Of a stretch of DNA of 64,000 nucleotides, positions 12,106-54,229 are shown one piece after another (the stretch's first letter is position 1; each line of letters opens with the position of its first letter). This DNA is from Sipunculus nudus (taxonomy: Eukaryota > Annelida > Sipuncula > Golfingiida > Sipunculidae). The notes under the pieces are model-generated. The model was given only the letters and a program-made list of their open reading frames with translations. It did no database searches and was not told the origin of the DNA. The position numbers were made by a program, and so were the translations under genes. The stretch covers positions 20,297,839-20,361,838 of the forward strand of contig CM049316.1 in assembly GCA_026874595.1 (NCBI GenBank), read 5' to 3'.

Positions 12106-13781
12106 TCAAGTTTCATATACTGAGTTATATTGCTCATGTACTTTACCCAGAACGGACTGTAGTCGGGACCAAAATGCAGGGACATGGTTTATTGTATCCT
12201 CCCCAGATCACAAGCGATAGGTGTGAGGCTCAAGATGGCCACAAGAGTGCGTGGCATGTCAGTAATCGGAACTTCTTCAAGCACAGCAACAATTCATTTA
12301 TCTACCCCTTGCTACAGAATGTGGATCCGGGCCATATGCATTTCAAATTTACACCAACCACTTTGAATAATATGTTTTTATAGCACAATGATGGTTTTAA
12401 CGACTTGTGGAAATGCTTCGAAGGATATTTACTTCAATCGGCCACCCAATTTCAAAATCTCTGCAATGACACACAAACGAAACTCCATATCCCCTTCTAT
12501 AAGATTTGGTATATGATGATTCTCAACCCAAGGTAATTTTCTCTCGCTTAAAGCTACAAAAGCATCGTATTGAAACGCTCCGTCTGTTGCACAAATTCGG
12601 CGTACAGCTCCCGGTTTGATTTTCAGACGAATGCAGAAATCCTTTATGTCTAATCTGTGCCAATACGCAATTATGGAAACCGTCAAAGAAAGGACAAAAC
12701 AATACCAGAATACCTGCTATAGTATACAACCATTGTAAGCTAGTGCTTTGTTTTACTCTGTTTACAAAACTCTTTTAAACCCCTGAACTAGACCAGTTTG
12801 TTTTCCGAAAGGTCTATGTATATATATAGTTGAGTGTTTTTATTCTGCAAGGATAGATATACATTGGGGTTGATTATGCCAATTTTGGCGATTTCATTGG
12901 CCATGGAATGGAAAAGTGATATGTTGTTGTAAACATGCCTTCTGAACATTTTTAGTGATGTTCCAAATTTCAGCGTACTGAAATTGGCATGTCTGCTGCT
13001 CCTGACAATCTTTTTTGTCTGTATGACCTGAAAGTATTTCTGGTGCTTGTTGACTTTTGTCTCAAACTTTAAGATGTCGAAGACCCAACAGGAATAATTA
13101 CAATGACAGATGGTTGACGCTCACATAAAGTTTGGAGTAAAACCAATGAGCAAACTCGAAAAGGATGACATTCTCTTTCTGCTGATATCATGTTTCCTGA
13201 GTGAAGGTGTCTTAATAAAGTTTATAATTCTAAAGTGATATAATTATCTGAAAACACACTTGACCAATAAACATGTGTCAGCAGGAGTGTGCTTAATCTG
13301 TTCTTTGTCAAGGACAGCATCATAGAAGTTAAAATTCTATACTTATCTTTTCCCATTTCAGAATTCAAAGACAGATCTAGAGTTTCTAAATTTATAAGGA
13401 GCTTCAAGACGTTTGACATCAGTGCTTTGGTGTCCAAGCCAAGAGAAGTTCTAAGATGTGTAAAGTGGTGAGACCCATATATGACTCTTCTTTTTGTGTA
13501 GAAATGCCGGAACTTCGCAAGTTGCATATCTCTAAGTAACAGCAGTTGACAAATGAACTATTCCTTTTTTCGGGGTGTTTGTTTTCCAGACAGTGTAAAC
13601 TTTGAAACGTTATCTTGTAAAAAAATGGAATATCCGTGAGCCCTTTGTTCCCACAGTTTACGATGGTGGAACCATGGTCCCGTGTACAGACGAAACTAGA
13701 ACAATTGAAGCTTTGCCCAGGGATACAGAAAAACGCGGCCAACAGAGAAATCCAAATTACATGTGATAAAATGCTACGCAT
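12106..13781 (-). pseudogene. Toll-like receptor pseudogene 1 (LRR region deleted)
   Basis: The minus strand starts at 13781 with a hydrophobic signal peptide (MRSILSHVIWISLLAAFFCI). An LRR N-cap follows: a Cys cluster and CGNKGLTDIPFF, matching the start of the other TLR copies here. A frameshift near 13450-13500 leads into LRR text (LINLETLDLSLN) ending at a stop at 13222. About 500 bp of degraded DNA then replaces the remaining LRRs and LRRCT. At 12729 the gene resumes with a membrane segment (SLQWLYTIAGILV) and a TIR domain: box 1 YDAFVALSER, a box 2 fragment RLCV, then DMPRTLVAIL and a box 3 PAFWSRLQSVL just before the stop at 12106. Several frameshifts break the TIR. Family assignment is firm; the gene cannot encode a receptor. 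Confidence 0.85.
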
Positions 13782-16700
13782 ATTTGCTGGTTGCTAAAGA
13801 TGTCCGACAGTAAGGTAATAATAATGATCTGCCCGTTGCCTATATTGCTCTTTGAAAGTAGGATACGATGGAAGTAAAGTAATTCAACCATGTACTCATC
13901 GGGTGAATTATATTTTTGAATCCTGTTAGCTCTTCTTGAAATCATAACATTCTTTGGACTCATAAGCCTCTGATCATATATTGTTTTCCTAATCTACAAA
14001 TCAAATAACAGATAAAGCGATGCGCGTATCGACCTCTTTACTGTAAGTCAGCACCCTCTACAATTAAAAATGGGAATAGTTCAGGTTAGTTTCCGTTTGA
14101 TCAAGGGGGTAGTCATGGATACTCCCTCTCACCCTTCCCATTGGTCATAACAATAAAACTTTGACAGGGTCATGTACTGGGCATTAGGTAACTAGATGCA
14201 CCCTTGGAAAATTCATGTTTGAACAAGACAAATAAATTTGTCGTGAGCTGGAACGGGCTGATTGTAAAATATTTTAAATGACAATATTTTAAAAACAAAA
14301 AAGTAACGATTGTTTAACCTGAATGGATAAGGAGACAAGAAGTGACCTAACTGTAATATATTTCCAGTGGGGCTAGTTGACTTCCTCTCGTTGACATTTC
14401 CTTGTTAAAAATATTTTACAATGATGGAGTCACCAGCTATGCACGAAATTGGAAATAAACGCACTCTGTCTGTCGGCTACTCCCCACCCCTATCCCCTTA
14501 ACAGCATTAAACTCGCTTAACTTTATCGCTTTCTTGATTACTATTTTAATACATTTAATACATTGGTCTTTATTCTGGTCTGTATTTCATTCAGACTTAT
14601 GCAATACCTGGAGAAAAGTGATACAGGATGTTGCCTGCACTAGCATGCTGCACTTACAATTTTAATTTAGTTTTAAATGAATTATAGTCATTTGCGAATT
14701 TAGTAAGTACCATAATTTCACTCCCAACTTCTCTAAAAAGGCACAAACGACACATCCTATTGTCTATATGCACATGGCCTATGAGTTGATTATGTGTTCT
14801 TTGCTTTTCCGTTTAATATATCTTGTATTTTCTCCTGGTTTTTGCAATATTCATTCTTAATTGTTTAATTGGTCCCTGTGACAGAATGCACATTAAGTAG
14901 TATGGGAATCATCAGCAAAATAAATTTGGTCCCCAGACAGTCAACTTGCGGTTAGTGCGGCGTGCCTTGTCTCCTGAGAGGTTCACAATGAAATGTTTAA
15001 GATTGGTCCATACGAGAGGACCAGCGATATCAATTTTCATCGTCCATCCTCCATAGCTTTACACGGAGAAAACTTTATCGAGGGGAAACCATTATATACC
15101 CCTCTGCCGATTTAGTTGCCTTTAATCTAAAACTTACTGGTCATTTACTGTGCCTTTTTCTCTCTCAAACTGCCGTCATATTGAAGCATATATGGTTTAT
15201 GTGGCCGCACGATCTAGGATCACATCATGCAGTGACTCGAAATAGATATCGTTATCCACAAAATATTTCGGTACCGTTGCGAATAAACAACATACATAGT
15301 TGCGCGTATACATCCAGAACATAAAAATCGAATGACTCAAGCATCCACTACTGTTATTATAGTTGGCAAGGATACAGATATAATTTTGATTGGTGCTTCC
15401 TTTTCAGTTCATTTACATGCACATTGATGAAAGGTCTCAAACTAGAACCAACATGTGGGCTAAAGAACGCATTGGCCTTCAAAAAACATTTCAATGACAA
15501 ATCGTGCACTAACAGATGTAGGAGGGTTACTTTCAAATATTTTAGCTACACGTTCCCTTTTTGCAGAGAAAGGGATGTTTTTATCAATTCAGCCTTGGAC
15601 GGAAAAATGCAGAAAAGGGGATATTTTCATACGACCTTCTCAAAGTCTGAATAGAAGGATAACCAAATTGACCCCTGCTTGTACATTTCTTAAATACAAA
15701 CCGTAATTTGGCTTATAAACTCATGTTAACAAACCCATGTTAACAAACACAATTACAGATTTGGTTTTTTTTTGGTGTATTGTCGTGACGACTTGCCATA
15801 TTCAGAGGATAAGCATATGATGCCCAGGAAAAGAACCTTGAATGTTTGATCTAATTACTGAAGCTCCTTCTTTTTTTCAACTACCTTTACAAGGGGGTTT
15901 ATAATATAGACATGTCTATCTGCAATTTAGGTGAATGGGGTTATAATAAAATAACACGAATGGGTACCCACAATGTTTGTAAGTGCCCCCTCGTAGGAAA
16001 AAGATGGGATTTACCATGGATGTCCTCTTGTGTAAACCGTATATCATGATTGCATGCAATAGTTAAACGCTGGTTTACAAAATATAATAGGGTAGTCTGG
16101 TGCCTGAGAACACTCATTGTCTATTTCCCTAATGACGGTTGTAAAGTACATAATCATTTTGTATTAAATAACACATTGACAATACTTCAATGGGTGAAGT
16201 GAATACGCTCAGTCGCCAGCAGCTATGATGTTTTAGGGAAGAGTGGATTTTTGTCACTCATGAGATGACTAATGTGATTGCGTACACGCAGTATCCCCAG
16301 CGCCATCTGCACTTCTGTTCGACAAACTTTGAATAATCACGGGTGACTGGCAAGAAAAAACAACAACTCGGAATAAAGGTAACCTATGTCCCAGGGAATT
16401 TTCACCAGAGAACTGTGAATAAGATATATTATTGTATGCTCATGTAGGGAGCATAGCCAGATGATTGTTTTTATCATTTATTGTAAATTAAGATGGAGTA
16501 TCATGCTTAGATGTTAGCTTGAGAGCTAAGTTAGAGAGCACAGGTGGCTCATTTGATGATAATCTCAGTACAGTTAAATTTCGTGGGAACCCGAATTTTT
16601 TTATTGTAGACTGCAAAGGAAGACCGAAAACCTGCTACCTTTTCTTTTTCTAAAGGTTTGATCTCTTGAGGCGTGTCCATTTAATATTCTTGTAATTACG

Positions 16701-17634: not shown

Positions 17635-19956
17635 TCAATCTGTCTGAGCTTGGTTTATATTTCCTTGGCGTTGAGAAAGAGAATACCGAAGACGTGACCA
17701 AAATACAGGAACATTGTCGATCATATCTTTTCCAGGCCACACGAGAAACGTGTGCCGTCTCAGAATGGCCAGCAGGGTGCGCGGCATGTCAGTGCTCGGA
17801 ATTTCCTCCAGCAGTATTACGATATGTTTGTCAACGCCCCTTTCCATCATATGAATTCGAGCCATGTGCATTTCAAACTTACACCAACCGCTGAGAATAA
17901 AATTTCGGGATAAAACAATTATAGTTTTTGACTTGTTGATATACTCCGAAGGATATTTTCCTCGATCGGCAATCCGATTTCGAAGTCTCTATGATGAACG
18001 CACAAACGAAAGGGAGTCTCCCCTTCTTCAATGTTTGGAATGAGATATTCTTTTACCCAAGGTAAGTCCTTCTCATTAAACGCTACGAATGCATCAAATT
18101 GAAAAGCACCGTTTTCTTCAAACAATTCAGCATAGAGTTCCCGACGAATTTTGAGACGGATACAGAAATACTTCATGTCCCATCGGTGCCGATAGGCAAT
18201 AACAGAAGGCGTCAAACAAACAATAACAGTTGCAAGAAATCCTGCGATAACATACAGCCATTGTACATTGATGCAACTTTTCTAAAGATTAGGCAAAATA
18301 TCTGTAAATAATTTGGAAAAATGTACCTGCTTTTCTCGAAGACTACAGGTCATTTTCTTAAATTTGGTAAAATTGTCCCGATATCTGTACAGCCATTTCA
18401 GAAAAAATAAAGAGTTGCATGAGCATTCCAAAGGATTGACGCTCAAGTCTGTCCTAACCGTTTTCCCTGCTTTATCCGACATTTTAAATGCATTTATCAA
18501 TGGTGACAGAACAATTCTCTTTAAATAAGAAAATCGATTATTTGAAAGATCCAAAAACGTAAGATTTATCCAAGCACTAATGCTGACTGGAGCTGGGATA
18601 TCACGCAAATAGTTGTTTTTCAGAATAAGACTGTCTAATCGTAATTTATATCTGAAAATATCTGCTGAAATGTAAAATATATTGTTAGATGTGAGATCTA
18701 AGTGCTTCAAATTCATCATATATGGTAATGGGCCAACATTTTATGCTATCAGTGCACCAAGATTGTTTTCGGCTAAATTAAAAAACACAACTGAGGCCAC
18801 CAAATTTTTGCCAAATCCACGTTTACTTATATTGGTTAATCGGTTTTGGGAGATGTCAACGGTAAGGCCAGTGACCGGATGTTGTAGCTCTATAGTACCA
18901 AAAAAACTCGCGTAGTCTATTATCAGCAAAATCTACCAACCAACTTTGCATCTGTCTTTCATTTAAGACATATATATGGTCACTGGCCGGTAGTGAAGCA
19001 AAATTTGTGATTTGCCTAGCTTTAAAAACTTTAATATGTGGGGGCACAGGGATCATACAATGTATATTGCCAAATATATAATCATCCTGACTGATTTTGT
19101 CGGTTAGTTTAGTATAGTTCCACGTGTTATTTTGTTGTGATTTGCATCTTTGTTTCAAAGCTATTTGTCGCTCTTTTTGCCTTGTCATTCCACCCAGGGC
19201 TTGAAAGCATATATCTAGATATATAATCCGAAATAGTCCCAGCAGGAAACCATAGGAATACAAATGATTAACCCTCAAACGAAGGTCTTCCAAATTTTGG
19301 GTAAAATTAGAAAGTAGGCCATGAATATATCCAATTTTGTTTCTCCTGAGGTCAAGTTTCGTCAGGGAAGGCATCTTGATAGACTCAAGAAATGCATATG
19401 TGATATCATTATCTGAAAACACATGAGACGATGCAACATGTATCAGTAACTGAGTTTTTAACTTTCCCTTTGGCAGAGATAGTATCATAGAAATCATAGA
19501 GCGATATTTTTTATCGTCAAGCTGGTAATTGCCAGACAAATCCAAAGTTTCCAAATGTTTCAATGGTCTGAACACGCTCGAGATCTGTTTCTTGGTGTCT
19601 CTCACAAGGTAATTGTAGCTGAGATTCAGCAATTGTAAACGAACAAGTTCCTCAAATGCACCTTCCTGAAGAGACTGGATTCCGGATTCATCCAAATGTA
19701 ACGCGTTCAAATTCGAGCAATTTTCGAATGCAGAGCTCTTAATCTGATTTATTTGTTTTTGAGAGAGTATAAACTCCTTAACATTTTCTTTGCAGAGGGG
19801 TGATATGTCCGTCAGGCCCTTGTTGCTACAGTTGACGATGAGGGAACCACCATCGTGAGTTCATTCACATTTTGAACATTGAAAGCACTGAACTGCGGTA
19901 TATTCAAAAACACCAAATATAAAAATTACAGTTATATTTCGGATAATGTTTGGCAT
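17635..19956 (-). pseudogene. Toll-like receptor pseudogene 2 (nearly full length, five lesions)
   Basis: Read from the ATG at 19956, the product would be a single-pass TLR of about 770 residues. It has a signal peptide, an LRR N-cap (GLTDISPLC), about ten LRRs (LETLDLSGN, LTKLDLRRN, LKHLDLTSN, LTFLDLSNN), an LRRCT (NPLECSCNSLFFLKWL), a membrane segment (WLYVIAGFLATVIVCL) and a TIR domain (box 1 FDAFVAFNEKD, box 2 LCVHHRDFEIG, box 3 VPVFWSRL). Lesions: TGA at 19861-19863 where the paralogue has Cys; a frameshift near 18900 in a run of seven A; TAA at 18741-18743; TAG at 18282-18284 where paralogues have Glu; and a one-base loss near 17935 inside the TIR. Upstream, TTCTTTTCACAG (AG at 20168-20169) is a good splice acceptor for a 5' UTR intron. 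The stops argue against sequencing error alone. Confidence 0.9.
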
Positions 19957-20180: not shown

Positions 20181-20569
20181 CAAAATATAGTTGTTGATCT
20201 GTATAAACAATAATAACACAAACATATGAAACCAATTTAATTGTAAACTGGCCAAGGGTATTCGCGAAATATATGAGCAGTTCTAGGTAAGAATGAACAA
20301 ATTGATTAAATTGAGATAATTTATCGACAGACTGTATATTAGAAATGCAAAAACGAAGCGTTACAATGTTCAAGCGACCTCATAGCGCCACTAGCTGTTA
20401 CAAGTTTATTAACAACTATTACACTAAAAGTTGTGGAAACTAATCATTAGCTCCTGACATATCTTGGTTTTGTATGATTTTTTACTAAATTGTGGCTACA
20501 TTTTATTTGCTTAAAAATTGTCATGCAATAACATCCTGCAACTATAATCTCTTCCAGATTAGTCGGGAC

Positions 20570-20880
20570 AAAATACGCTTTAATAAAAAAAATTGCTACA
20601 GTAGGTTTTCAACGATGTTTGGTATAATTGAACACCTGGAAAAAACATAATAAAAATCTAAGATAATCGGATTTCTGGTGGGCTGTTTTTTTTAATGGGG
20701 TCCAAGATGGTTGCCAAGACCTTAAATTTGCCATAAAACATTCTTTTTACGTGCTAGACCTATAATTTTGCGTTATTGCTAGACCATAGATGGTGTTTGG
20801 AGTCAAGAAAAACAATGGAACTAATAGAAATACTGTTTTGTTTCTTGGCAACCAGTAAATCCAAAATGGCTTCCAAGACT
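20570..20880 (+). repeat. Left terminal inverted repeat
   Basis: Its order of landmarks is GGTTTTCAA, TTTGGTA-ATTGAA-AC, ATAATCGGATTTCTGGTGGGCT, GCCAAGACCTTAAA, GCCATAAAACATT, GCTAGACCTATAATTTT, AACAATGGAA, CTTGGCAACC and AAATCCAAAATGGC. The reverse complement of 26190-26505 has the same landmarks in the same order with scattered substitutions and indels. Confidence 0.8.
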
Positions 20881-21387
20881 GATGCTGTGTAGACTGAAAA
20901 TGGTCACAAACCACTCAGTTTTACATGACTGCTGCAGTTTTGGTGTCTCTACATGGTTTTAAGGGAGTGTACAGATTGGTCTAGATCGGTAAAACTGCAA
21001 GTCAGGACTAAGTAAGGTGGTAATATGTAAACTGCAAGATTGCTGGCAATATATTGAGAGACTAAAGATTTTCAATAGATCACTTATTTGACCACTTAGA
21101 TGTCTTAAGTTCAAATGAAATCCACCTTGACAGCCTTGGATAAATATGCCTAAATACTTATACTATTAGTTGTACCAACTTTTTTGTTTCTTTTTTATAT
21201 ATTCTAATTTTTTATTTTTTTTTATTTCTTAATTTAACACATCAATGGTTTGTTGGTGACATTAAGTTATGGTAATGTTATTAAATATTCTTGTTTTCAT
21301 GAGCACGAACCAAAGAATAACCCAGAAATCTTAGCCTATCATTTAGACATTCAGGACAGAGATAGTCCCTTGGATTCTATCGAAATA

Positions 21388-24300
21388 TCATAATTTGGCG
21401 TTGTTAGACACTGGTGGGGTTCGAATAAGGACCTTCCTCTTTGAGCCCATCACCTGATTCACTTTATTGCGGCAGTCATGTTCTTCCTCTACAGACTTAT
21501 TATGTGGTCCGCAAACGCTTAGGCATGGTAGTCTGTAACCTCTACAGCTACAGCAAACTGTTGAACAAACAGTTGAACAATTGCAATGAATCATCTTAAG
21601 AAGATTGTCAGGAGCAGCATCCATCTCTGACATTAAAGGAACAAACTTTCTGTCGACCATCTTCAAGCCCAAGGCTGTGACGTTCATGTCGCCTTCGTTC
21701 CCTATCCACGCCATGGTCTGGTAGTAGGTCCTAAGAGAGTGAAATTTAGTGGAGGATGCAGCAGAAGGAAGAAGCTCAGGCATCACGGATAATTTAGCGG
21801 ATGAAACTATTTTATGAAAATGTTGTAGTGCATTAATGGCAAGGAATCTGCACAAATGTGTGCTTCTATTATCTCATTTTGCTGATTCGGCAGAGTGTAT
21901 GCTGTAGCGGAGGATTGGATGGTGGGATTGCCATTCACAAGCTTTTGAAAGGCTGACTTTTAACCAATACCGAAAATCCGGGAGGTCGAATCACAACCAG
22001 TGAAGGCGTGAATGAATAGTAGCTGTGAGCAAAGGTCCACCGTCAATGACATAGTGTTCGGTTTGGGGAGCAGAGTCTGTAATGGCCTCGCTTGTCACCT
22101 TTCCTGCATGGTCGATTATAACATGAGTTAATTGGGGCATATCGGCCTTCCGGAAAACAGTGTTCCCTTCATGAGGGAAGGGACTGAGCTCATTACTCAT
22201 AACTTCTTGCAATGAAATAAAACCTCTGCTTTTGACACAACCAGGAACCGATGGGACAAAAGGGCAGAGTATGTGATCCGGCAGGAGCAACCTTGACTGT
22301 AGACATATCTGTCAGCTTTTGACCTTGTCTGTCCATTTGAATGAGGATGTGAATGCGGGCTGTCCAATCATATTTTCAATGCTTTTCGTCCCTACAGACT
22401 CATATTCATGTACATTCACATCTGGTGTAGCCACTACGCCAATATTTCTCAAGGAAGGATCCGGAGAAACAGGTGAACAGGCAGACAGCTTTGCTCTGAT
22501 CTTCGACAAATCAACGGAACCTCTTGTGATCCTGGTGTCAGTGGATTGTTTGTGCTGCTCACTGGTTGCAAATGAGAGATTGGTGAATTCTTGCATAGCA
22601 CGGTTGTAAGCAGATGTTACAGGCATGGACATTGTCCACAATGACCTCTGATCTTCATTCATCCCGCTCCCATGGGTCTAACCGCAACTGCTCTTGAGTG
22701 ATCTCATCAAGGTCTGTTCTATTACCAGATAAGAGCCAAGACCGGCCCAGAATTAGTGCCTACGACGTATTACATGGAATCCGTTTAAGAATCTGTTGAA
22801 TACATCTGGATTGTTTGTCTCAAGCTCACCCATTCATTTCATGTACATAGAAATAGGCAGATCACATAAAGTTGTGACTCCCAGCAGTAGCAAAATAATC
22901 TGTAGGCAGTCAGCAATTGCATGTAAGTGCATTGGCCATGATCTTGTGCGTTCTGCGGTGAGCAGCTCTCTGGCAACCTTCAACATCTTTTGATAATTTA
23001 TCCACAATTGACTGGTTTTTTACCTTGCTTGAAGTTCAGTCTTCCAATTGTCATTTTTAGTCTATTTGTAGAGATCTGTTAGTACACTCTCCAAATTCGA
23101 CTCACCTCTCAAAAACTAGAAGTACATATCTTCTGATTGATCTACCAGTGATTCAAAATCGGGAGCCTCATCCTTCATTGATGTGACATGCATGTGGTTA
23201 AAACATTTGTCTATCAGCAGGTGCCCACAGAATGATCTTTGACTGATCTTCCTGTCATCATATGCATGACGGCATTTTCGCCATAGGCGGTTTCGCGGAT
23301 TTTGCCAAGTCCTGAGCCCTGCATGAGAGTGCTCATTGCTCCAAGCAAACTCATGAATGTTTGGAATCCACCCAGAAGCAAAACGATTTTTTTGCAGGAG
23401 GCTGTTCTGTGGTGCATTAATTATGTTCTGAGCAGCCTTCCAATATAAAAGATGGTCGAATGTTATGACTGGTGAAACATGATGTTTAATTGCCAAATTG
23501 CTGAGGTTCTCTAACGTGGTTAGAACACAAGTTTTGTCCCCAGTATACGTGTCTATCTTGAACAGACGAGTGCCCAGGGTGTTTATTCTCTTGATGAATA
23601 CTGTGCATCATACCAGGCCAGTTGGAGGTTGCATCTCTGAAACTGAATGAGAGCTCCAATAAGATGTCTATCTTATTCTGTCTAAGCGTGCTTGGCAAAG
23701 AGCATTGTATGATGTGAACTTTGGTATCATCGGAAATGTTTAGATCTAAAGTATTCTGTCTGGTAATAACACAACTTGTATTCTGGCTTGGTGTCACGAA
23801 AGCAATCTTGCATATTCCATGAAATGTTCCTTTTCCACCAGTGGATAGTATATTATGGTCAACATTATCAGCGGTGAAAAGCACTTTAACGGACTCACCT
23901 AAGATGTCAGAAGAAACACATCCGGCAGCATTCTTTTCAAATAACATGACTTTCCCGTAGGATGAACAGAACCCCATTTCGGTGTATCCACAATGATCTT
24001 TGACGATACAGGTGATGTATTTGAACGCTAAGACCAAACAGCAAAGGAGCGAGAACGGTCCGTGGCCGAACTGCTTGAATTATTGCCTGTCCATTGTTTG
24101 CGACTTTACGTTGGTTTTCTTTATCCAAAAACAGACTATTCAACAAAGTGCAAAGTCTTGTAGGAATGTATCTCAGTGTTGAATCATGTTTCAACAATTC
24201 TTTACTTGGGAAGTGATAGGGACGGACTGAACTTTTGTTTTTATGTCACTTTTATCAACCTTGCCGATGTTTCAATTATCGCTCGTTTTTGAGATTCTCC

Positions 24301-25130
24301 ATCATCGTCTCTGTGCGTTTGCCTGAAGTATGACCGAAGGATCTGAGATGTCTTTCTGTCATAGTCACAATATTATAAAGACCTGTTCCTTCTGTGATAT
24401 ATATAGAATCCCCATATCGTTCTTTCGGCCTGTCATTGAGATAAATTTACAATATGGAGAAGAACCCTTAGCGCTATTGTCTGAAAGAGTAAGTTGTTCT
24501 TCATCATTCATCTAAAGGTATCAGAATATTTTGGAAAACGCTTGCTCCTTATCTTGATCCTCGGGTCGGCATGATGTTTTTGCGCTTAACTGAAGGGCCA
24601 CTTTGATACTGGAATGGTATGTTCCGCCCAGACCGGAAAATTTCCACCACACGAGTGCTGATATAAACAGTCTGCAGCATGGAGATCGCCAAAAAAAATA
24701 CTCTATGCGACCTTTCACAATGAAAGACCAGTTGTCAGACCAACCATCGCAGCATTCCAGCATTCTTTGTAAAGGTATCAAACTTTACTCGGCTATAGTA
24801 AAAAATTCCTGGACTAATAGTACTACCACAAAACAGACAATCTGTTTTGCTATTGAAGGAACTTAATGATACTCTGACACTTCTCTTTACTGAACCGGAT
24901 GAAAGCGATGTTAGCGGGTCAAGCGGGTTGTCAAGCGGGTCAGTGTACCGCTTACGACATTCAGTATACATTTTAGTGCCAGCCGCGACAATGATGCTAT
25001 ATCCTCTCAGATCACTTGCCTCGTTAATGCTATCAGCGCCCTTTTGTCTCAACTGAAACATTTCAGCTCCATAATCCAATGTCTCTCTGCAGATGGGACA
25101 AACATCTTGGTTGCCGCTACTTGAACTCAT
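21388..25130 (-). pseudogene. Broken gene of a multi-copy, transposon-associated Cys-rich protein family
   Basis: From 25130 the frame opens with a CPICRETLDYG Cys module, then KGADSINEASDLRG, CRKRYTD and DCLFCG. Further segments in order: VKGRIEYF (24.7 kb), QAIIQAVRPRTVLAPL (24.1), FTADNVDHNILSTGGKGTFHG (23.85), ITFDHLLYWKA (23.45), YGENAVMHMMTG (23.3), TMSMPVTSAYNRAM (22.6), HYVIDGGPLL (22.05) and a C-terminal Cys cluster CNCSTVCSTVCCSCRGY (21.55). I recognise this series as an uncharacterised family amplified in mollusc and cnidarian genomes. Paired Asp motifs (ADNVDHN, TFD) could fit an RNase-H-like nuclease, but that is inference. At least six frameshifts or stops occur. Text expected between VIDGGPLL and the C-terminal part (about 1 kb in intact relatives, from memory) is missing near 21.86-22.02 kb. 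Confidence 0.8.
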
Positions 25131-25204
25131 TCTGGTATCTAAAGGTTAGGCGTTTAAATGGAGTCGAAGCACACTATGATTTGTTTTATTGAGCTACGTG
25201 GGTG

Positions 25205-26060
25205 TATTGATTATATCTAATAGTACAAATGATACATTAAATATCCAGTTACATAAATACTTTTAAGTTATTGGACGCCAGATAAAAAAAAAATTGGCTG
25301 ATCTTTTACATATAATCATGTCACTGGGGTATTGTAGGCCTTTATCAGATGCTTTCCTTGGATAAATTATGCAGATTAGTTATCTGATTTAAATGCAATA
25401 GAAGGAATGATACATGGAATATTCAGTTACTTAAATACTATTAAGCAATTGGACCCCCACAACAAAGACATTGCCTGAACTTTAACATATTATCATGTCA
25501 CCGGGGTATTGTAGGCCTTAATCAGACAGTGGTGTAGGCTGTTTATTGGTAAATTGTGCAGAGGAGTTATCTTATTTGAATGCCCAAGTAGAGTCAACAG
25601 TTTAATATTATAAAGCTTCGTCTATAACGTCATGGAAGCCGCCGCATGTATATTCTACGAACAACATGGAGGGAGCGAGAGCCAGGATTTTGTTACATTT
25701 TATTTAAACATTCCTGGTCGGGAGAGTGACGCACTTACACATAGAAATAGGTAAGTTGTAACACGTAAGCATGTTACCGGGATATTGTATATCAGAGAGT
25801 GGCACAGGCTGTCATTGGATGAATTCTGTTTAGCTGTCTGACTCTTTATGAAAGTACTTATGTAGTGTCTACAGAGTTTTATTTTATAAAGCTTGTTCGA
25901 TTACGTCATGAACGCCGCCGCATGTACTTTTCTACAAACAACACGGAGAGAGTGAGAACCAGCATTTTGTAACATTTCGTTTAAACATTCAGGGCCGGAC
26001 GAGTGACGCGCTGGTACATGGAAAGAGATAACACGTTAACATGTTTCCGGAAAATTATTC
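25205..26060. repeat. Subterminal direct repeats inside the ITR element
   Basis: Two unit types were seen. Unit type 1 (about 180 bp; TCATGTCAC-GGGGTATTGTAGGCCT, ATCAGA) occurs at about 25205-25385 and 25386-25560, with a weaker trace at 25770 (ATGTTACCGGGATATTGTA). Unit type 2 (TAAAGCTT-GT, AACGTCATG-A-GCCGCCGCATGTA, GGGAG(C/A)GAG, GAGTGACGC) occurs at about 25609-25735 and 25890-26015. They lie between the gene's 5' end and the right ITR, where transposase binding sites or the promoter would be expected. Confidence 0.65.
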
Positions 26061-26189
26061 ACCAAACAGTAGTGTAGACTGATTTTCAATTAAGACTTTG
26101 TACTTATATGACAGTGCTTAAGTATACAGTCTATAGAGTTTGAGTGGCAAAGGCTGTGTTTTCATTTATAATCTAGCTATTATAAGCAG

Positions 26190-26505
26190 CAATTTTAGAT
26201 ATCTGAAAAATATCGGGTCATTTTGACCGCCATTTTAGATTTACCGGTTGCCTAGAAACGTGACAATATTTTAATTGTTCCATTGTTTTCCTTGACCTCA
26301 TTTTTCTAGCAATAGATGCAAAAATTATAAGTCTAGCGTATAAAATAAATGTTTTATGGCCATTTTAAGGTCTTGGCGGCCATCGTTAACGCCATTTAAA
26401 AAAAAGCCTACCAGAAGTCCGATTTTATTATATTATTCCGTGTATTCAATAGTACCAAAAACTATTGAAAACCCTTTTGAAGCAATATTTATCACGTTCG
26501 GCTAT
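26190..26505 (-). repeat. Right terminal inverted repeat
   Basis: This is the inverted partner of 20570-20880. Read on the minus strand it gives GGGTTTTCAATAG, TTTGGTACTATTGAA, AATCGGACTTCTGGTAGGCT, GCCAAGACCTTAAAATGGCC, ATAAAACAT, CGCTAGACTTATAATTTTTGC, AACAATGGAAC, TAGGCAACCGG and AAATCTAAAATGGC. Confidence 0.8.
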
Positions 26506-26779
26506 TTTTTTCATCATAAATTGACCCGTATATAAACTTTGTAACACTGAGTTTGTTCAGATCCGGCTGGACGGTTCATATGTTTTAGGTTGTGATCTTT
26601 GTATGTCACTTACCCGTGGCTCTACCTTGCAGCAGAAGGGAGCTGTAGGAAACATTTATACGTTTTATTATAAGACATTATTATAACTTCACTGTTCACT
26701 GCTGGGGTATATTTCGATCATAGTATTATGATGTTTAGACTATCATAAGAAGATTTACTGGGAAACTCTATTGTAACTA

Positions 26780-29660
26780 TAAAACAAGTGGCCCATGGGC
26801 CATGACGCTCAGCTGAATTCGAGGAACCTTGAACAATGGGTAAAATGAACTCAAAGAGTGCTAAAAATCATACATTTTGCCAACAAACATTAGATATAGG
26901 TTACAGTGATTTTATTCTACAATCAACTGCTACCATTTGTGTCCATATGACTAAAACAGTGCTAAAAACACAGCTTGCAGAATATAGGTCACAGTGACAT
27001 TATTTCAAATTTCCAAGAATTTTTTACAGGGACCTCCCTGGATCTTAATCAAATTAGAAGTTTCTAGGTCGAACTGTAACCAATCATGCAAATCTGTTGT
27101 TTCACATATCTTTCAGAATATAGGTCACTATGATCTAATTTCTAATTTCCCTGAATGTACAGTTAGAAGTTTCTAGGTCCAACGGTTATGGTTTGTGCCC
27201 TTTTAACAGCCAGACCACTTCATTTGAAGGTCTCAACTAGATGACACCAAAATAATTAAGAAACTAATTTCGTCAGTCTCAAAAATTTCTCAGTCCAACC
27301 AATATGATTTGTCCGGTTAACAGATGACTACATCTTTGAAGGTCTCAACATGGAGAAGAAAATTGTAAGTTAAAATTTGAAAAAATACAGGTAGTGCCAC
27401 CATTTCTGTAGAAACTAAAGAAAGAGTCCATGATCAATTTATATGCAAAGAATCATGCTGATCAATGCATTAGTTATTCACCTACTTGAGCTTTTGTATC
27501 AAATTTTTAATATTCTGAGGGGTAATTCTGAGCCCCATAGCTTGGAGAATATAGGTAACAAAGACATAATTTCAGGTTTCGACAGGGATATATTCATGAA
27601 CCTCCTTTGATGTCAAGTTAGAAGATTCCAGGTCCAGCGATTAGGAATTGTGCCATGTTAACAGTTGACAGTTTCGTTGCAGGTCTAAAAAAAACCAAAA
27701 AACAAAAACGCAGTATTTATTCAGATATTTGAGCTTTTGTATCAAAATTTTGATTATTCTGGGGGGGGGGGGGGTACTTCACAGCCCCATAGCTCAAAGA
27801 ATAATGGTAACAGAGACCTAAATTCTGGTTTCCAAGAATATTCATGGACCTTTCTAGGTTTGAAGTGAGAAGATTCCAGGTCCAGCGGTTACGATTTGTG
27901 TCCTGTTAACAGAAAACAGTTTCATTGCAGGTCTCAAAAAGAGAAAACAATTCGTGAAAATTGGAAAAAATACAGATGGCGCCCCCAGTCTGCAAAAAGT
28001 GATGGAACATCCCAGGATCAATATTCTTGCAAAGAATCATGGTGATCAATGAAGTAGTTATTCAGATACTTGAGCTTTTGTATCAAATTTTGAATTATTC
28101 GGGGGGGGGGGGGGGTACTTCGGAGCCCCATAGCTCCAAGGATATGGGTAACAGAGACCTAATTTCAGGTTTTTAAGGAGAATGTTCATGGACCTCCAAG
28201 GATATTAAGTTCGAAGATTCCAGGTCCAGTGGTTACGATTTGTGCCCTGTTAACAGATGACAGTTTCATTGCATGTCTGAAAAAAGAGAAAAAAAAATCG
28301 TGAAAATTTGAAAAAAAATACAGATGGCGCCACCAGTCTGCAGGAAGTGATGGAACATCCCATGATCAATATTCATGCAAAGAAGCATGGTGATCAATGC
28401 AGTAGTTATTGAGATACTTGAGCTTTAGTATCAAATTTTGCATTATTCTGGGGGTACTTCGGAGCCCCAAAGCTCAAAGAATATGGGTAACAGAGACCTA
28501 ATTTCAAGTTTTTAAGGAGAATGTTCATGGACCTCCCAGGATATTAAGTTTGAAGATTCCAGGTCCAGTGGTTACGATTTGTGCCCTGTTTACAGATGAC
28601 AGTTTCATTGCATGTCTGAAAAAGAGAAAAAAAAATCGTGAAAATTTGAAAAAAAATACAGATGGCGCCACCAGTCTGCAGGAAGTGATGGAACATCCCA
28701 TGATCAATATTCATGCAAAGAAGCATGGTGATCAATGCAGTAGTTATTCAGATACTTGAGCTTTAGTATCAAATTTTGCATTATTCTGGGGGGTACTTCG
28801 GAGCCCCATAGCTCAAAGGATATGGGTAACAGAGACCTAATTTCAGGTTTTCAAGGAGAATTTTCATGGACCTCCCTGGATATTAAGTTTGAAGATTTCA
28901 AGTCCAGTGGTTATGATTTGTGCCCTGTTAACAGATGACAGTTTCATTGCAGGTCTGAAAAAAAAGAGAAAAAAAAAATCGTAAAAATTGGGAAAAATAC
29001 AGGTGGTGCCACCAGTCTGCAGGAAGTAATGGAACATCCCATGTTCAATATTCATGCAAAGAATCATGGTGAGCAATGCAGTAGTTATTCAGATACTTGA
29101 GCTTTATTATCAAATTTTGCATTATTCTGGGGGGGTACTTCGGAGCCCATAGCTCGAAGGATATTGGTAACAGAGACCTTATTTCAGGTTTTCAAGGGGA
29201 TTTTTATGGACCTCCCTGGATATTAAGTTTGAAGAATCCAGGTCTAGTTGTTACGATTTGTTCCCTGTTAACAGATAACAGTTTCATTGCAGGTCTGAAA
29301 AAAAAGAGAAAAAAAATTCGTAAAAATTGGAAAAAATACAGGTGGTGCCACCAGTCTGCAGGAAGTGATGGAACATCCCATGATAAAAATTCATGCAAAG
29401 AATCATGGTGAGCAATGCAGTAGTTATTCAGATACTTGAGATTTTGTATCAAATTTTGATTATTCTGGGGGGTACTTTGGAGCCCCATAGCTCCAAGGAT
29501 ATGGGTAACAGAGACCTAATTTCAGGTTTCCAAGAAGATTTTTCATGGACCTCCCTGGATGTCAAGTGTAAAGATTTCAGGTCCAGCGGTTACGATTTTT
29601 GCCCTGTTAACGGACGGCAAGACGCCCGGACAGATCGCTATAGCTCAGCTGAGCTAAAAA
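26780..29660. mobile_element. Dispersed repeat carrying a 339-bp tandem array
   Basis: The left end reads ACAAGTGGCCCATGGGCCATG with a GGCCCATGGGCC palindrome, then GCTCAGCTGA (26807-26816). The right end reads GACGGCAAGACGCCCGGACAG and then a perfect 14-bp palindrome AGCTCAGCTGAGCT (29642-29655) followed by A's. Ends of this type are common on mollusc repeats. The left 700 bp hold diverged units and the right part a regular array. A palindrome next to CTAA recalls a Helitron 3' end, but this is not established. Open frames inside are periodic artefacts. Confidence 0.6.
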
Positions 29661-42690: not shown

Positions 42691-43068
42691 GTAATGCTGG
42701 TAATCTCTGTAAACAAGCCTGCGTGTATCTTCGATCAAATTGAGAATGTAAACCCTGCGAAACTAGGCTATAACAGCAATAACTAAACTTGATATAACCC
42801 TTATCTACAGCAGGGTCAGTGTGTGCAACCTTCCCACATCATGGTTAATATCCTTTGTCAGTCTTACAAGTTACAGGGCCAAAATATTCCCTTATATGTA
42901 ATTATGGTCAAGTATGGTCCCTTAGCATCTCCTCCAGTATCACCAAGCAGCATAACAGTGTTAATGGGTATTAATAAAGATGTTGAAAGATTTATATAAG
43001 CTGCAATTAGGTCCAATGGAAGGCAGTACAAACACATGTAGACACACATTTTAGCTAAATTCAAGTAC

Positions 43069-44605
43069 TTGAATATGGCAGCAGAGAGAACGCGAAAGCA
43101 CAGATCCCTACATAGGAGACAACCAAAATTCAAACCCGAGTGTCCTGGGGACAGAAAGGAAAACCTACTTCAGAAATTAAGACAAGTGAAGAAAGAGTTG
43201 CAAAGCATATCTGTGACAAACACAGGCACACTTGAACAAGCACTTGATTTCTGGCTGGAGCATAACATCAAAATTCAGTCAGATAGACAGGGTGAAAGCA
43301 GTGGAAATAAACCTGTCCTAATCATACTTACCTGTTCCAGCCATCAGTGGCAACTAGTCTATGTTTGCCAACAGAAAATATGCTATACAGGAACTGGTGA
43401 ATCAGATTGGGCACATAAATGTTCTTGTAAAGAAGACCTAGTTTGGCATGAACATTGTACACTAGGCCAAACAGCATTTATAAAATTTGTCTATAGTGCC
43501 AGGCAACAGGTTTCCTTGGGAGCATCAACATATTGACCTGATGACACCAGCCTTTCTCAACATGAGGTTTGCCTATGATTATATGCAAGTGGGATGCTAC
43601 CTTCACACTATGGATGTTTTACTGAAGCTGCAGATTTTGGACAGATAGGATATACCCGTATGAAAGAGATGGTTGCCACCTTTAATGATTGTGTTAATGA
43701 GGAGGCCCAGGATTCGTGCTATACAGCTCTTTTTGAGGAGATAGGGAGTTATGAGGACTTCAAATAAGGTATCACAATCATAATTGATGCTCATGGGGGT
43801 AGGAAAAATGCGAAAGACACAGATATTGTGTGCATCGGCTACCAATGTCAAAAAGTTTTTAGAAATGAACATGTTACAAAATCAGATGAGAACATTACAC
43901 AAAGACATGAGAATTGGTGCAGAGCGACTGTATAAATATTTTTATGAAGAAAATATAGAGATTGATGTACATGCCCATGGCAACAGTGCAACATTCAATA
44001 AATTTATAAAAGAAGAAAGGGAATTCTCAGTATAAAGATACCTTGCATGCTGCCTGCTCAGTGAAGAAGGCCATGACAAATCTGGCCAAGGGGCGCAAAC
44101 TACAAGCATTGTCTATCATTGCACTGGCAGCTCAGTGATAAATCGTGGTCAGTAAGGACACATTTTCCTTGGGCCATGAGGAACTGCCAGAATGATCCTG
44201 ACCAGTTGCGGAATCAACTTGATAATATTGTTAATCATTATCTAAATGATCATGCTAGATACCACAATTCTTCATGGTGCAAAACTGGCCCTCATTATGA
44301 ACCATGCAAAATTATCCTTACAGATTTTAAAGTAGTTGAATAGTTGAGCTGATGTCAAAACTGATAAAACAATCTGCTGCATACAGAAATGCTTCATATT
44401 ATGCATTGGCACGAGATTCGTATTATGTTGAAAGCTTCAACAATGTTTTGAATATATTCCACGATAAATTGATAGTGTTTGGAAACACTAAGTAAGAGAT
44501 ACGTACTAACCTCGCTATTTGTCACTGGAATGAGAATGTTGACAGGCCATGTACCACCAGGTGGTGGCAGAGGATCCAAGGAGGTAAACAGGTAAAAAAG
44601 ATCTC
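43069..44605 (+). pseudogene. Broken DDE-type transposase-like gene
   Basis: The first frame (43069-43536, 155 residues) is basic at the N-terminus and holds a coiled-coil-like ENLLQKLRQVKKELQSI and several Cys/His (CSCKEDLVWHEHC). After a frameshift come FLNMRFAYDYMQVGC, TRMKEMVATFNDCVNE, then TIIIDAHGGRKNAKDT (Asp codon at 43786), GAERLYKYF, IDVHAHGNSATFNKFIKEE (43.96 kb), DTLHAACSVKKAMTNLAKG and YYVESFNNVLNIFHDKLIVFG (Glu codon at 44430) followed by NLAICHWNENVDRP. Asp / Asp-region / Glu motifs in this order suit an RNase-H-fold DDE transposase. I recognise the C-terminal part as a multi-copy cnidarian and mollusc family. At least four frameshifts and two stops (43767, 44484) are seen. The second Asp position reads Gly here. 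Terminal repeats were not found. Confidence 0.65.
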
Positions 44606-47494: not shown

Positions 47495-48205
47495 TTGACA
47501 TTATTATTTCACATTAAACATTTTCCATTAAAACACTTTCTACTTGATTTAAAAGTAACGTTAATACGCCATCCTTTCTCTAAGTTTTACCTATCAGTTA
47601 CCCATGTTTGTTTTGGATGGATTGATGGATGGATGGACAGCTCTCAAGGCTACAGTGTTTACTTAAAAAAAAACAGTCGCCTGTGAAAATAATAAACAAA
47701 CTCAGTGATACATCAAGGTTCCTGCCTCCTGTAAACTGTCAGCCTTTTAGCGGATAACAGAACACTAGAACAAGCAATGATGAGGACGTGCAGGCCGTAG
47801 TTTGCGTGATAAAATGCAAATCATCAGACTTTCTTCGATTTTATACATGTCTACATTTTTATAAAGTCCTCGAAATGTAAGTTAAATAACCTACAGGATA
47901 AATAGTTTATACTACAATAGTTTGTTTGAATGTTAGTATCATCAAATTAATTTATAAGGTTTATTTTCAGTGAATTGTTTGGTGAAACAGAGGAATTCAA
48001 CTGTTGTTTACTAGAGCGTTCAGATATATTTATTACAACAAAATATAATCGTTTGCCTCGTATTCAGCAGAACATGTGCATTGAATAAGACATAGACGGT
48101 TACATATGGCCCAATGAGATCAACAAACACCATTACGTGTACACAGACAGAACGCACGATCTCGGTAGTGTGATTTTCCTAAAAACCAGGGGGATAAAGA
48201 GAAAG

Positions 48206-50520
48206 ATGCGGAACATTATTGTGATCGTAGTTACTACTTTTTTAATAGGTGATATAATCTGCACTGTTACTCAGAGATATAAATGTTCAGCATGTGATTG
48301 CACAAGCAACGGTAACTCTATCACTGTATCTTGTGATGACAAGGGACTGACGGATATACCAAACCTCTGTCAAGACAATGTGACGAAATTTATTCTCAAC
48401 GATAACCAAATAACTCGAATTAAGGATTTTTCATTTGTAAAATGCTTTAATTAAGAGACATTATATTTGGGTGCGTGCGAAATCCGAACACTGGATTAAA
48501 GAGCTTTTGAAGGACTGGTTCGGTTACGTTTTCTTGATCTCAGCTACAATAACATTGGTTCAGATGCTGAAACTTTTGGATGTTTTCAAACCACTGATAA
48601 ATTTAGAAACTTTGGATATGTCTAACAACTTTCAACTGGGTCAAAATAAATATCGCGTTTTGACAAATATGATGTCGTCTCTACCAAAGATACGGTTACT
48701 TTCGTTAACGTGGACAAATGTTGCATCGTCTAGTGTATTTTCCGATAATGATATCACGGTTACACTTCTAGAATCTATCAGGACGCCTTCTCTAAGGATA
48801 CTGTATCTCAGTGGAAATAGGATCGCATATATTCCTAGATTTCTCACTATTTATACGCCAACTTTGGAAGAGCTTTATCTCAGCGCCAATCACCTCTATT
48901 TGTTTTCATTTCTTTTGGGCCTTGAGCGTCTCAGAACTTTAGATTTAATCTACCAAACACCGAGCGCAATTACAAATCATATTCAAAGAAAGAAATCTTT
49001 TGATGAAAATCATACTCGGCTCAAAACTCCGAAGTATTTCTTAGGACAACATGGGGATTTTGAGATTACATTGGACTATATGGAAGTTGATAATACTAAG
49101 GAAGACGTAACTGAAACACATTACCATACCATTCCATGGCCTGCCAATCTTACTTATCTGAATGCTGCTGAAATTGCTTATTTTGGCATAATTAAAAGCT
49201 CTGTGCATTTCATTTTGTACAATAGAAAAAGTATACAAAATATAAACATAGTATTATCTTTTAAAAGTTTAATCGAGTTCTTGGGAAAACAGAGGTGTGT
49301 AATCCAGTGTCCGGTATTACCCTCGATTTATCAAACAACCAAATCCGGAATACTCCGAAAAATTCCTTGGGGCCAAAAGTGGCTTCAGCCATTGTTTCTT
49401 TAAATTTGGAAAACAACAATCGTGGAGGAATGATAACGGAAGACGGTGGACCTTTATACCACTTTCACAATCTAAGAGACATCGATCTTACATCGAAAAA
49501 CATCTTTCACATTTCGCCATTCGCTTTCAACCGTTCAAAAAAAAACTACAATTGGAAAGTTTGATCCTGAGGAATAACTACTTGCATGACATTCCAACTG
49601 GCATAAACACATTGCAACATTTACATATTTTAGATCTTTCCAGAAATCACATTCAGTACCTAAAACGGAGTGTGCTCTCACAAGTGACTAGTATAGTTAA
49701 AAGAGCCAAGGCAGGAGAGAAGAATTTTCGCTTGGATTTGAGTGGCAATCCTTTAGAATGTTCATGTTGTGCTTTACTTTTCCTAAGATGGTTGTCCACT
49801 ATTCGACATAATCTGAAAAATATCGAGACTACAACTTGTAGTCTGCAAGGAACACATATTTCTATTTCTAAATTGCATTCAGAAATTTTGCCTCATCTAG
49901 AGAAACATTGCATCAGTTTCCAGTGGTTGTTTGTTATCGCAGGTGTTCTTGTTTGCATTGCCGTTTGTCTGACAGTATCAGTGATTGCATATAGGCACAG
50001 ATGGGATATCAAGTATTTCTGCATTCGTCTTAAAATCCGGCGCGAATTGTACGCTGAATTAACCGAAGAAGACATAGCCTTTCACTATGATGCCTTCGTA
50101 GCCTACAGCGAGAGGGATTTTTCTTGGGTAGAGGATCACCTTATCCCAAATCTTGAAGAAGGAGAGCCGGCTCTTCGTCTGTGTGCCCATCACAGAGATT
50201 TTGAAATAGGGTGGCCGATTAAAGAAAATATTCTTCGAAGTATATCTTCGAGCCTCATAACGATAATTGTGGTATCACGGCATTTATGAGAAGTGGTTGG
50301 TGCAAATTTGAAATGCACATGGCTCGGATCCCTCACGATTGACAGGGGGGCTGGAATTATTATTTTGCTCGAGGAACTTCCAGTGGCTGAAATGCCGCGA
50401 GCACTGTTAGCTATTATGAGACGTCACACTTATCTCAGGTGGCCAGGGGAGGGTATGATGGACAATGTTCTAGTATTTTGGTCACGTGTGCGGTCCGCTC
50501 TTGGTCAGCACACAAAATAA
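48206..50520 (+). pseudogene. Toll-like receptor pseudogene 3
   Basis: The ATG at 48206 starts a signal peptide (MRNIIVIVVTTFLIGDIIC), an LRR N-cap (CSACDC, GLTDIPNLC) and the first LRR. Lesions follow: stop 48453-48455, stop near 48498, a frameshift near 48575, then 230 codons of open LRR sequence (LETLDMSNN, LRILYLSGN, LEELYLSAN). Frameshifts near 49290 and 49540 (the latter in a run of A) lead to LESLILRNNYL, LHILDLSRN, an LRRCT (NPLECSCCALLFLRWL), a membrane segment (WLFVIAGVLVCIAVCL) and a TIR domain (box 1 YDAFVAYSERD, box 2 LCAHHRDFEIGWPI). The TIR is broken at 50285 and again near 50340. It ends VLVFWSRVRSALG, stop at 50520. The 49552-50289 piece is a continuous 245-codon frame. Confidence 0.9.
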
Positions 50521-51443
50521 TATTTATCCATTAGAGTGTTTGATTCGGTCCCTGCAACATACACACGGATATATGTGTGTGTGTATGTCTGTGTGATTGT
50601 GTGTATGTGTGAAATGCTCTGCATATGGTCTTTTGTATGTATATTTCAAACTCTTTGTGAATTGTGTTTTTAAATTTATTGTGGATCACTATAAGATATA
50701 CCATTTTATAGACCTTGATTCAAATTTCAAAAGAAATGCTTCATCATGTTTGAAAGAGCCTGCTGAATTTTTACTTATCTCGTCACACAGTAAAGTTGCA
50801 TGGATCTGAATTTATATAAAAGAGTTGTGTACATTTGCAGGCATATTCTTTTTAATACTTACAGGAAACGTAAAGGCGTAGATGGGTGCCGATTATAGAG
50901 ATGCTGTGTGTCGCGATATAAACAAAATTGTTAGTAAATGTATTAGATAATAAAGGCATGTGCTATTCTTTCAACCAGACGTATTGGGCATTTCGGTCCT
51001 GGTCAATCGAATACGTAAAGGTATTTAACATAAACATCTGGACACCTGTGATACCAACACTAAGCATACCATTGGACTGCAGGAAAATATAATTCAATTC
51101 TGGTAGCAGACTTTAGATGAAGCTGTAAGATATCTCATAGGTCAGGTATTTTATTGAATATTGTCGAATTTATAGCCTGATGTTGTTATTACCGCAAATG
51201 CTGCTGATTTAAGCTGGAAACATCCGTGTTGGTTTGCCATCCCGGAATATGTGACACACATGTTGAAATATATATTTGACCGTGCATCGTGCTTATGCTT
51301 GGGAAATATTGCTCTAATTGTAGTACTATCACACTGCTTTTTATAAAAAAAATAAACACATTTTGTTATAAATCTCTACTCTCTTTGTGTCAACATTTGT
51401 GAATATAAAGAGTGCCCCAAACAAAGGCTTTCAATGTGTCTCA

Positions 51444-51485
<42 letters not shown>

Positions 51486-53150
51486 ATAAGCTACACCGAT
51501 TTCCAGTACAGTTTGTGAACTATGTGGACGTATAGTGGAATCTAGATGGTCGAGCTGATCAATTCATCCTTGCCAGGCCGTTCAAAATAGGAGCAGGCAG
51601 GATGTAGAGCCTTTTCACTACACTCCTTCTCTAGACCTTTGGCCTTTCGATGGCTGGGATGCATTTCTCTCAGTGCCAATGCTGTTTATCCGATGGGCAT
51701 GGTACTTTAACGTGTTTCACAATGGTAGTACCACGCCTAACCTTTGAATGAAAATATTCTGCTTTTTTTCACAGGTCCTGTAGTTTTTTGTCGGCGCCTA
51801 GAGTTATCGATGAAATGCAGGACACCTAGGGTCAACCTTGTTCGGGCATTTGAATGAAAAAGTTTCAAATTACTTTAGTGTGTATTCAAATAAAAACCGC
51901 CTTGTAATGTAGTATACATTATTTAGCCGGCTGTACAGTCTTTTCTGTTTATATACGTTTGTGCATGAAAAAGAAAATGAGTTTTAGTATATGTTAACGT
52001 GCAATAAAACTGAACTCCTTGTATCAGTAGCAACTTTATTGATGTGTATAAGTAATGACCATATTTTGGAGCAAAGGGGGTCTGAGGAAGGTAAAAACAA
52101 GTGAAGCACTTAAACGTAACACACAGCGCCTCAAATGGTAACCAACAAAGCAGAAAATAAAGCCCTGAATAGTACAGTTAATGTACTTAAGCCTGAAAGC
52201 AATGCAATAAATCAGCAGATTACGTTATTTAAGGAATCATTATTTGACTCAGAAAGACACAGTCGAGAATAAAACTTGTCCTCTTTGACATCCCAGTACA
52301 ATAAATGATGACTGTTACGTGTCGCTAACATACCATCCGGGGTCACCACGCAACAAACTCAAATAAAGAAAGACTCACAAAGTGACTGATAATATTTGTA
52401 ATATGTACAATAATAGAAATTGTTCGTTCCAGTTGCATAAAAAAGACTGTTCCAAGTGAGACACTCATTTTTAAATCAAACAGGAAACTTAGCGTCAAGG
52501 TGTCTCCAATCAGCGAAACACATCGTCCAAATGAAACACCTGGGGCTGCGGTGGAGCTGTTCACAAAACACAATACGTTTAACCGGTATCAGTCCATTCG
52601 AAACGAATTAAAGGATAACATCCTGAACCAGGCCTGGCAAGAAATCATAACAGTTCGGAATATAAGTGTTGCCCACACGAGATCGGGCGCATGGTGTTTT
52701 TATACGAGAAACGTTCGGGTTCAGTACAAGATTGTTGGCTGAATAATAAAAGTTCGGGTTCATCATCTGTGTTACAACTGTTGATATGTTGTTTTCTGCG
52801 GTTGTTCCGCTTCACTGGTCTCCGCTCGATCATACTCTTGTGTCGTTCTGGCACTGGCTGAAAAGCTTTATTGTAGGCTCCCTGCCTTAGTCTACGGAGT
52901 CACAGTGACACCAGCACATTACTGTAAACATATTGTGGCAAAATAAGGCCTACAAACGATTTTGAAATCCACGATGCACTGGAATCTATTGAACATGCTC
53001 ATAGAACAGGAAAAACAAAATATGGGGGTCATAGATATATCAAAGACATATAGATACTCCAGAAAATGCAATACAAAATGGTTATCACAGTTCAAGATAT
53101 CGATTTGTGCCAGGGATAATTCGAGACATATATTAACACAATATCAGCAG
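50521..53150. other. Intergenic stretch with TG and AT microsatellites
   Basis: Holds a (GT)n-rich tract at about 50570-50610 and an (AT)n tract at 51446-51482. No gene was recognised. Open frames at 52500-53156 show no family features. Confidence 0.45.
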
Positions 53151-53154
53151 AGCT

Positions 53155-53245
53155 AGGTATTTTTCTATATTACATTGTAAATCACAAGTTGACCCAGCTA
53201 AGTATTTTTCTATATTATATTGTAAATCACAAGTGACCTTGAATC
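53155..53245. repeat. Short tandem duplication of about 46 bp
   Basis: The text GCTAGGTATTTTTCTATATTACATTGTAAATCACAAGT is followed directly by GCTAAGTATTTTTCTATATTATATTGTAAATCACAAGT, two near-identical units just before a LINE-like fragment. Confidence 0.85.
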
Positions 53246-53283
53246 CATTTCCGTACAATTTAAATATTGTTAATTTACGTAAA

Positions 53284-53545
53284 TGTACTTTTGCAAAGAG
53301 GACGAGGAAACTTTGGTTCGTTTATTTTGGGAATGTTCATTCAAAGCCTTGCTATGGTCAAATATTCAGACAAACTCAGATTGTTAAAATATGAGCTAAA
53401 CACGATAGGGAGAAGAGGTGTCCAAGGTTTGTAGCTCTTTTATGACTTATTTAACCCTAATATGTGGGTAATTTTGAGGTAATTGGCATTTGCTAAGAAT
53501 AAAGTAAAATTCCTGAACATTGTGAAACTCCATTACCCAGTTGTA
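53284..53545 (+). pseudogene. LINE reverse-transcriptase C-terminal fragment
   Basis: The frame from 53284 reads CTFCKEDEETLVRLFWECSF and then LLWSNIQ before a stop near 53377. The pattern C-x-F-C-x-E-x-E-T-L-x-x-L-F-W-x-C is typical of the C-terminal zinc-binding tail of many LINE ORF2 proteins. After a break, VILR, LAFAKNKVKFLN (about 53470-53515) resembles the usual closing segment of these proteins. The rest of the element is absent. Confidence 0.55.
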
Positions 53546-53549
53546 ATTA

Positions 53550-54225: not shown

Positions 54226-54229
54226 CAAA

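Follow-up and report, generated by a model that had tools for sequence, protein, structure and literature searches.

The DNA examined here (the window) is a stretch of 64,000 nucleotides from Sipunculus nudus (GenBank assembly GCA_026874595.1, contig CM049316.1, forward-strand positions 20,297,839 to 20,361,838). It contains a decayed, broken DNA transposon with long inverted repeats, which enclose the remnant of a single minus-strand gene (Table 1). A first-pass annotation, made from the sequence alone, had noted imperfect repeats of about 300 bp, 5.3 kb apart, had assigned the enclosed gene remnant to a DNA transposon, and had suggested that its protein, a member of a family usually annotated as uncharacterized, may define a new transposon group.

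Inverted repeats, element extent and gene remnant

The repeats are 5.36 kb apart. Their inverted alignment (20588-20870 with 26490-26229) spans 286 columns and has 73.8% identity (E 1e-43), and a weaker similarity reaches 20570-20928 and 26508-26162. Their local alignment score is 208, compared with a maximum of 75 for 988 random pairs of similar spacing from the same window. The termini were set by comparing near-identical relatives that reside in different flanks. Two such pairs of loci, L066 and L069 (98.8% identity over 6,094 columns) and L067 and L070 (98.2% over 5,869), lose their similarity at a TAGnCnRnWCAA terminus or one base beyond, and the same motif is found at both ends of L026, L027, L030 and L064. 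By homology to these copies, the element in the window starts with TAGTCGGGAC at 20560 and ends with ..GACCCGTATA at 26532. The extent first read from the repeats was thus nearly right, except that the true ends lie further out. At the right end the outermost TAG is changed to TAT; the related copy L030 has TAG at both ends. A second copy of the element was not seen inside the window.

The minus strand between the repeats holds eight open frames of at least 80 aa with a total of 1,073 aa, while 500 dinucleotide shuffles gave at most seven frames and 729 aa. The longest of them (197 aa) is by itself unexceptional, as one shuffle gave 217. The proteins of the relatives L066, L067 and L070 are colinear with the gene in the window across three frames (tblastn), which bears out the earlier description of a single gene remnant. 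An attempt to read across a frameshift by means of a four-letter word yielded no single clean frame in the window copy. Some 500 bp of the nuclease core are absent from this copy, between about 22027 and 22038; the locus L025 retains them, with the motifs VVFDGY, PGDAD and GEDTD, between the edges IDGGPLL and HAFTGCDSTSRIFGIG. Because this core is lost, neither a working nuclease nor the full protein should be encoded by the window copy. In Pfam searches with pieces of the window copy no match reached its curated cut-off (the lowest E value, 0.003, was for a DB module in the Cys-rich tail), Rfam at the gathering threshold gave no match within the window, and PDB sequence searches gave nothing meaningful.

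Table 1. Coordinates of the element and its parts, counted from the first letter of the window
Feature	Positions	Strand	Basis
Whole element, 5,973 bp	20560..26532	.	Homology to TAGnCnRnWCAA termini of related copies; inverted repeats
Left terminal inverted repeat (gene 3' side), starts TAGTCGGGAC	20560..20870	+	Repeat alignment; termini of related copies
Broken transposase gene, three frames, with stops	21508..25145	-	tblastn of L066, L067 and L070 proteins; open frames
C-terminal segment including Cys-rich tail	21508..21816	-	tblastn, E 2.6e-41 (C-terminal matches of L070 jointly)
Two XPG/FEN-type nuclease edges, IDGGPLL and HAFTGCDSTSRIFGIG	21864..22047	-	tblastn; core retained in L025
Segment with LVIEQTLMRSLK (candidate catalytic E), then QHK / LRNI region	22312..22956	-	Alignment; tblastn
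Frame with TFDHLLYWKA (relatives: TFDQP), candidate for second catalytic D	23119..23607	-	Alignment; tblastn
Frame with ADNVDHN, candidate first catalytic D	23486..24079	-	76 matches in host genome; DNVDH in every covering row of alignment A1
N-terminal part, Cys motifs CPICRE and CLFCG	24735..25145	-	Frames; 10 DNA matches in host genome
Diverged direct repeats spaced by ~178 and 277 bp, located between the start of the gene and the right repeat	25211..26056	.	Shared with relatives
Right terminal inverted repeat (gene 5' side)	26229..26532	-	Repeat alignment; termini of related copies; 45 matching stretches in host genome

The direct repeats listed in Table 1 recur in L025, L026, L027 and L033, and are for this reason considered part of the element. 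Other diverged direct repeats are found just beyond it, at 26952-28500, where families of 24-113 nt start at 26952 and Tandem Repeats Finder (TRF) reports a period of 348 with 2.3 copies at 27712-28500.

Copies and target-site duplications in the host genome

The genome searched was that of the host (1.43 Gb, 153 contigs). A 411-bp piece of the gene gave 10 matches, the 197-aa fragment 76 and a 457-aa stretch of L066 118, numbers that do not equal copy numbers because one copy may give several matches. The family is multi-copy, and inverted termini are found on both sides at 10 of 15 loci (L026, L027, L030, L031, L032, L064, L066, L067, L069 and L070), three of which duplicate the window region (L031 and L032 at 99% identity, L030 at 92%). 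The terminal repeats range from 593 bp at 94% identity (L027) and 711 bp at 92% (L064) to 272 bp at 85-87% (L067, L070) and 135 bp at 68-69% (L066, L069), and because length and identity vary in this manner, imperfect repeats alone are no sign of age. Additional inner pieces of the terminal repeat, i.e., nested ends, are seen in L027 (2415-2566 and 8448-8901) and L064 (4344-4521 and 8123-8273). Three copies of the second lineage, at C9:36.154M, 36.164M and 36.174M, are spaced by 9.8 kb and have equal match scores; L068, sampled from this triplet, is without the 5' terminal repeat, and its flanking frames appear retrotransposon-like by eye.

The first-pass annotation expected gene copies to carry the repeats, and the repeats to accompany the gene. 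The former holds at the 10 two-sided loci, in part at four one-sided loci (L025, L029, L033 and L068), and fails at one, L065, which overlaps L033 and has no terminal repeat. The latter holds for part of the 45 stretches that match the right repeat, which are located near gene copies and comprise, among others, an inverted pair around C3:44.72M; further matches are found away from the listed gene matches, e.g., at C9:13.27M, C7:60.37M, C12:6.64M, C8:19.45M and C16:58.43M. One could argue from the 5 of 15 loci with one repeat or none, and from these isolated repeat matches, that a multi-copy host gene has by chance become enclosed by inverted copies of an unrelated repeat. Yet such loci and gene-less repeats are also what is expected from truncated and non-autonomous copies. 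Furthermore, three lineages share the geometry and the terminal motif, even though L066 and L067 have no detectable DNA similarity to each other, and in two of the three, 3-bp duplications are located directly outside this motif. Because the duplications sit at the repeat ends, they contradict a chance association of repeats and gene, to which we assign almost no probability.

These target-site duplications, which the first-pass annotation had proposed to define from the youngest copies, were examined in 11 younger copies. A 3-bp duplication is present in eight of the nine for which both ends were found, i.e., ATA (L066), CCA (L069), CTG (L067), ATA (L070), TAT (C12:70.3M), ACA (C1:85.67M), TTA (C7:34.9M) and CAA (C10:71.1M), where a chance 3-bp match is expected about once in 64. 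The ninth, C6:31.68M, which belongs to a young lineage, is without a duplication; of the remaining two, the ends of C4:65.1M were not found and L068 has one end only. None of seven older or segmentally duplicated copies (the window copy, L031, L032, L030, L026, L027 and L064) has a duplication. The flanks of L026 read TCA/TCG, while the window copy, L031 and L032 share their flanks through segmental duplication. The window copy is flanked by GAT and TAA, and in a comparison with shuffled flanks, using ends that lay too far in, 56 of 60 shuffles were equal or better for 3 bp and 28 of 60 for 4 bp. Together with the relatives that share the same arrangement, the 3-bp duplications of the younger copies identify the element as a DNA transposon with a gene of its own, as had been proposed. 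It is a ~6-kb element of the cut-and-paste type with imperfect inverted repeats of ~300 bp and a single protein, whose length in a relative with an open frame is about 1,470 aa.

Relatives in prokaryote, virus or plasmid DNA were not found in scans of IMG/VR and of GTDB contigs or by tblastn against plasmids (limit E 0.01). Sixteen loci picked up by pattern in IMG/VR and GTDB were rejected as relatives, since tblastn with the window frames gave none of them a match below E 0.08.

Domains of the protein in an open relative

In the relative L066 a single frame is open over 1,471 codons. It contains, in this order, a Cys motif at 16, ADNVDHD at 446, TFDQPLWWKA at 603 and DLVIEQ at 860. Next come VLDGGAL at 1086, VVFDGY at 1124, SGDADLMI at 1196, GDDTDLLVLL at 1220 and GCDTTSRLFGIGKG at 1280, followed by a Cys-rich tail from 1426, which is also seen in L067 and L070. 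In alignment A1, composed of 16 rows that are each 38-56% identical to the first, DNVDH, TFDQP and IEQ are retained in every row that covers them (7, 9 and 10 rows, respectively). Judged from these motifs, the three look like the D..D..E triad of a transposase.

For the region that contains VLDGGAL and the acidic motifs after it, a predicted model and structural matches suggest an XPG/FEN-type fold, in line with the nuclease fold that the first-pass annotation had asked to be looked for by structure prediction. The predicted fold and the order of acidic motifs (LDGG, VFDG, GDAD, DDTD, GCD..GxGK) are those of the XPG/FEN1/EXO1 family; unlike the members of that family, the domain is here found inside a transposon protein, and it has GDAD where the bacterial/phage profile has EADD. 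Pfam matches in the region are weak, with a PIN model (E 0.15) and a YacP-like NYN model (E 0.023) each found in one of eight members.

The nuclease-like domain is the only part of the protein for which a fold was tested, and L066, L068, L070 and L083 retain its acidic positions, so that one could envisage an element driven by a flap endonuclease, in which this domain rather than the D..D..E-like region acts as the recombinase. Such a scenario appears very improbable. It leaves aside the retention of DNVDH, TFDQP and IEQ in every covering row of A1, and a short duplication of fixed length next to inverted repeats is the typical product of DDE enzymes. Flap nucleases are not known as strand-joining enzymes.

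The L066 protein has a weak match to DUF6589 (PF20231) over residues 623-828 (E 0.001, below the family cut-off). Genome-wide, DUF6589 gave 36 matches, none of them at places among the matches of the 197-aa or 457-aa query, and it is therefore at best a distant relative. One of the DUF6589 matches (E 3e-37), at C3:42.85M, is located in a 554-aa open frame that possibly represents another, distantly related transposon family.

Classification, genomic setting and proposed function

The D..D..E-like region, the XPG/FEN-type nuclease and the 3-bp duplication together fit AcademX, the nuclease-encoding branch of Academ, to which we assign the element with a probability of roughly 80%; the suggestion of a new transposon group is accordingly probably wrong. 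The nuclease of AcademX is of the XPG type, and Academ proteins carry a Cys8 zinc-finger-like part, for which the Cys-rich tail seen here is a candidate counterpart. The AcademX lineage was reportedly described by Kojima in 2020. According to PMC10045372, target-site duplications are 9 or 10 bp in AcademH and 3 or 4 bp in AcademX, a difference that is related to the encoded helicase and nuclease, respectively. The element agrees with AcademX in having terminal inverted repeats, an element-encoded nuclease and 3-bp duplications; it differs in that the window copy is decayed and without most of the nuclease core. AcademH belongs to the same superfamily, but is reported to have the longer duplications and a helicase, whereas no Pfam helicase match was found in the L066 protein. 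Academ is counted among the DDD/E superfamilies in PMC9587614, and PMC10294476 describes an expansion of Academ in bivalves, with elements that average 5,565 bp, i.e., close to the length found here.

Several observations weigh against this assignment. In addition to the one-sided and repeat-less loci, the young copy without a target-site duplication and the lack of duplications in the seven older copies, the best Pfam match to the central region stays below its cut-off, and a PDB profile search with the D..D..E-like region found nothing. The nuclease profile match, made with a shuffle control, has an hhalign probability of only 24-25%, the Pfam XPG models match the nuclease region in none of eight members, and of 11 genome-wide matches to XPG_I (PF00867) at E up to 10, five over the cut-off, none is at the copies studied. 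(One of the XPG_I matches, E 0.79, lies within a 769-aa frame at C11:47.17M.)

Because membership in Academ is argued from architecture, duplication length and literature rather than from direct sequence comparison, and no Pfam transposase model matches, the element might alternatively represent a separate superfamily in which a transposase-like region and an XPG/FEN nuclease were fused independently. We consider this unlikely, since AcademX is reported to encode a nuclease and to make duplications of 3 or 4 bp (PMC10045372), and bivalves commonly carry Academ elements of about this length (PMC10294476). Equally doubtful is the stronger proposal that, in such a distinct superfamily, the fused flap nuclease would be obligatory for strand processing via a 5'-flap intermediate at excision or integration. 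Two other assignments were rejected. The Harbinger duplication is a 3-bp TWA, which only one of the eight observed duplications fits, and the variable 3-bp sequences do not match those of Kolobok and piggyBac, which duplicate TTAA.

In the window, the element adjoins a Toll-like-receptor-type gene. Genes of this type, some apparently broken, are located at 12791-13793, 17638-19860 (minus strand) and 48089-57192 (plus strand). Among five window frames searched with Pfam, three contain leucine-rich repeats, one of these together with a TIR domain, and the frames at 17922-18281 and 43042-43533 gave no match. The element and its flanks are segmentally duplicated at C11:20.32M, 20.48M, 20.64M and 21.28M (the window, L032, L031, L029 and L030). 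Besides the window copy, two show 99% identity and the other two, which are related, about 91-93%; at L030 the flanks align on both sides.

The DDE-type transposase region most likely recognizes the inverted repeats, cuts and joins the ends and thereby moves the element, where integration would leave the 3-bp target-site duplications. DNA binding may fall to the Cys motifs at the N terminus or to the Cys-rich tail, and the XPG/FEN-type nuclease, part of the same polypeptide, probably serves to trim 5' flaps or strand ends at excision or integration. Because open copies and copies with 3-bp duplications are both present in the host genome, this role of the nuclease in transposition is testable. 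The uncharacterized multi-copy proteins noted in the first-pass annotation thus gain an identity, i.e., that of mobile-element proteins with an apparent DDE region and a flap-type nuclease, and in S. nudus such an element occurs among Toll-like-receptor-type genes, where it has been duplicated along with its flanks.

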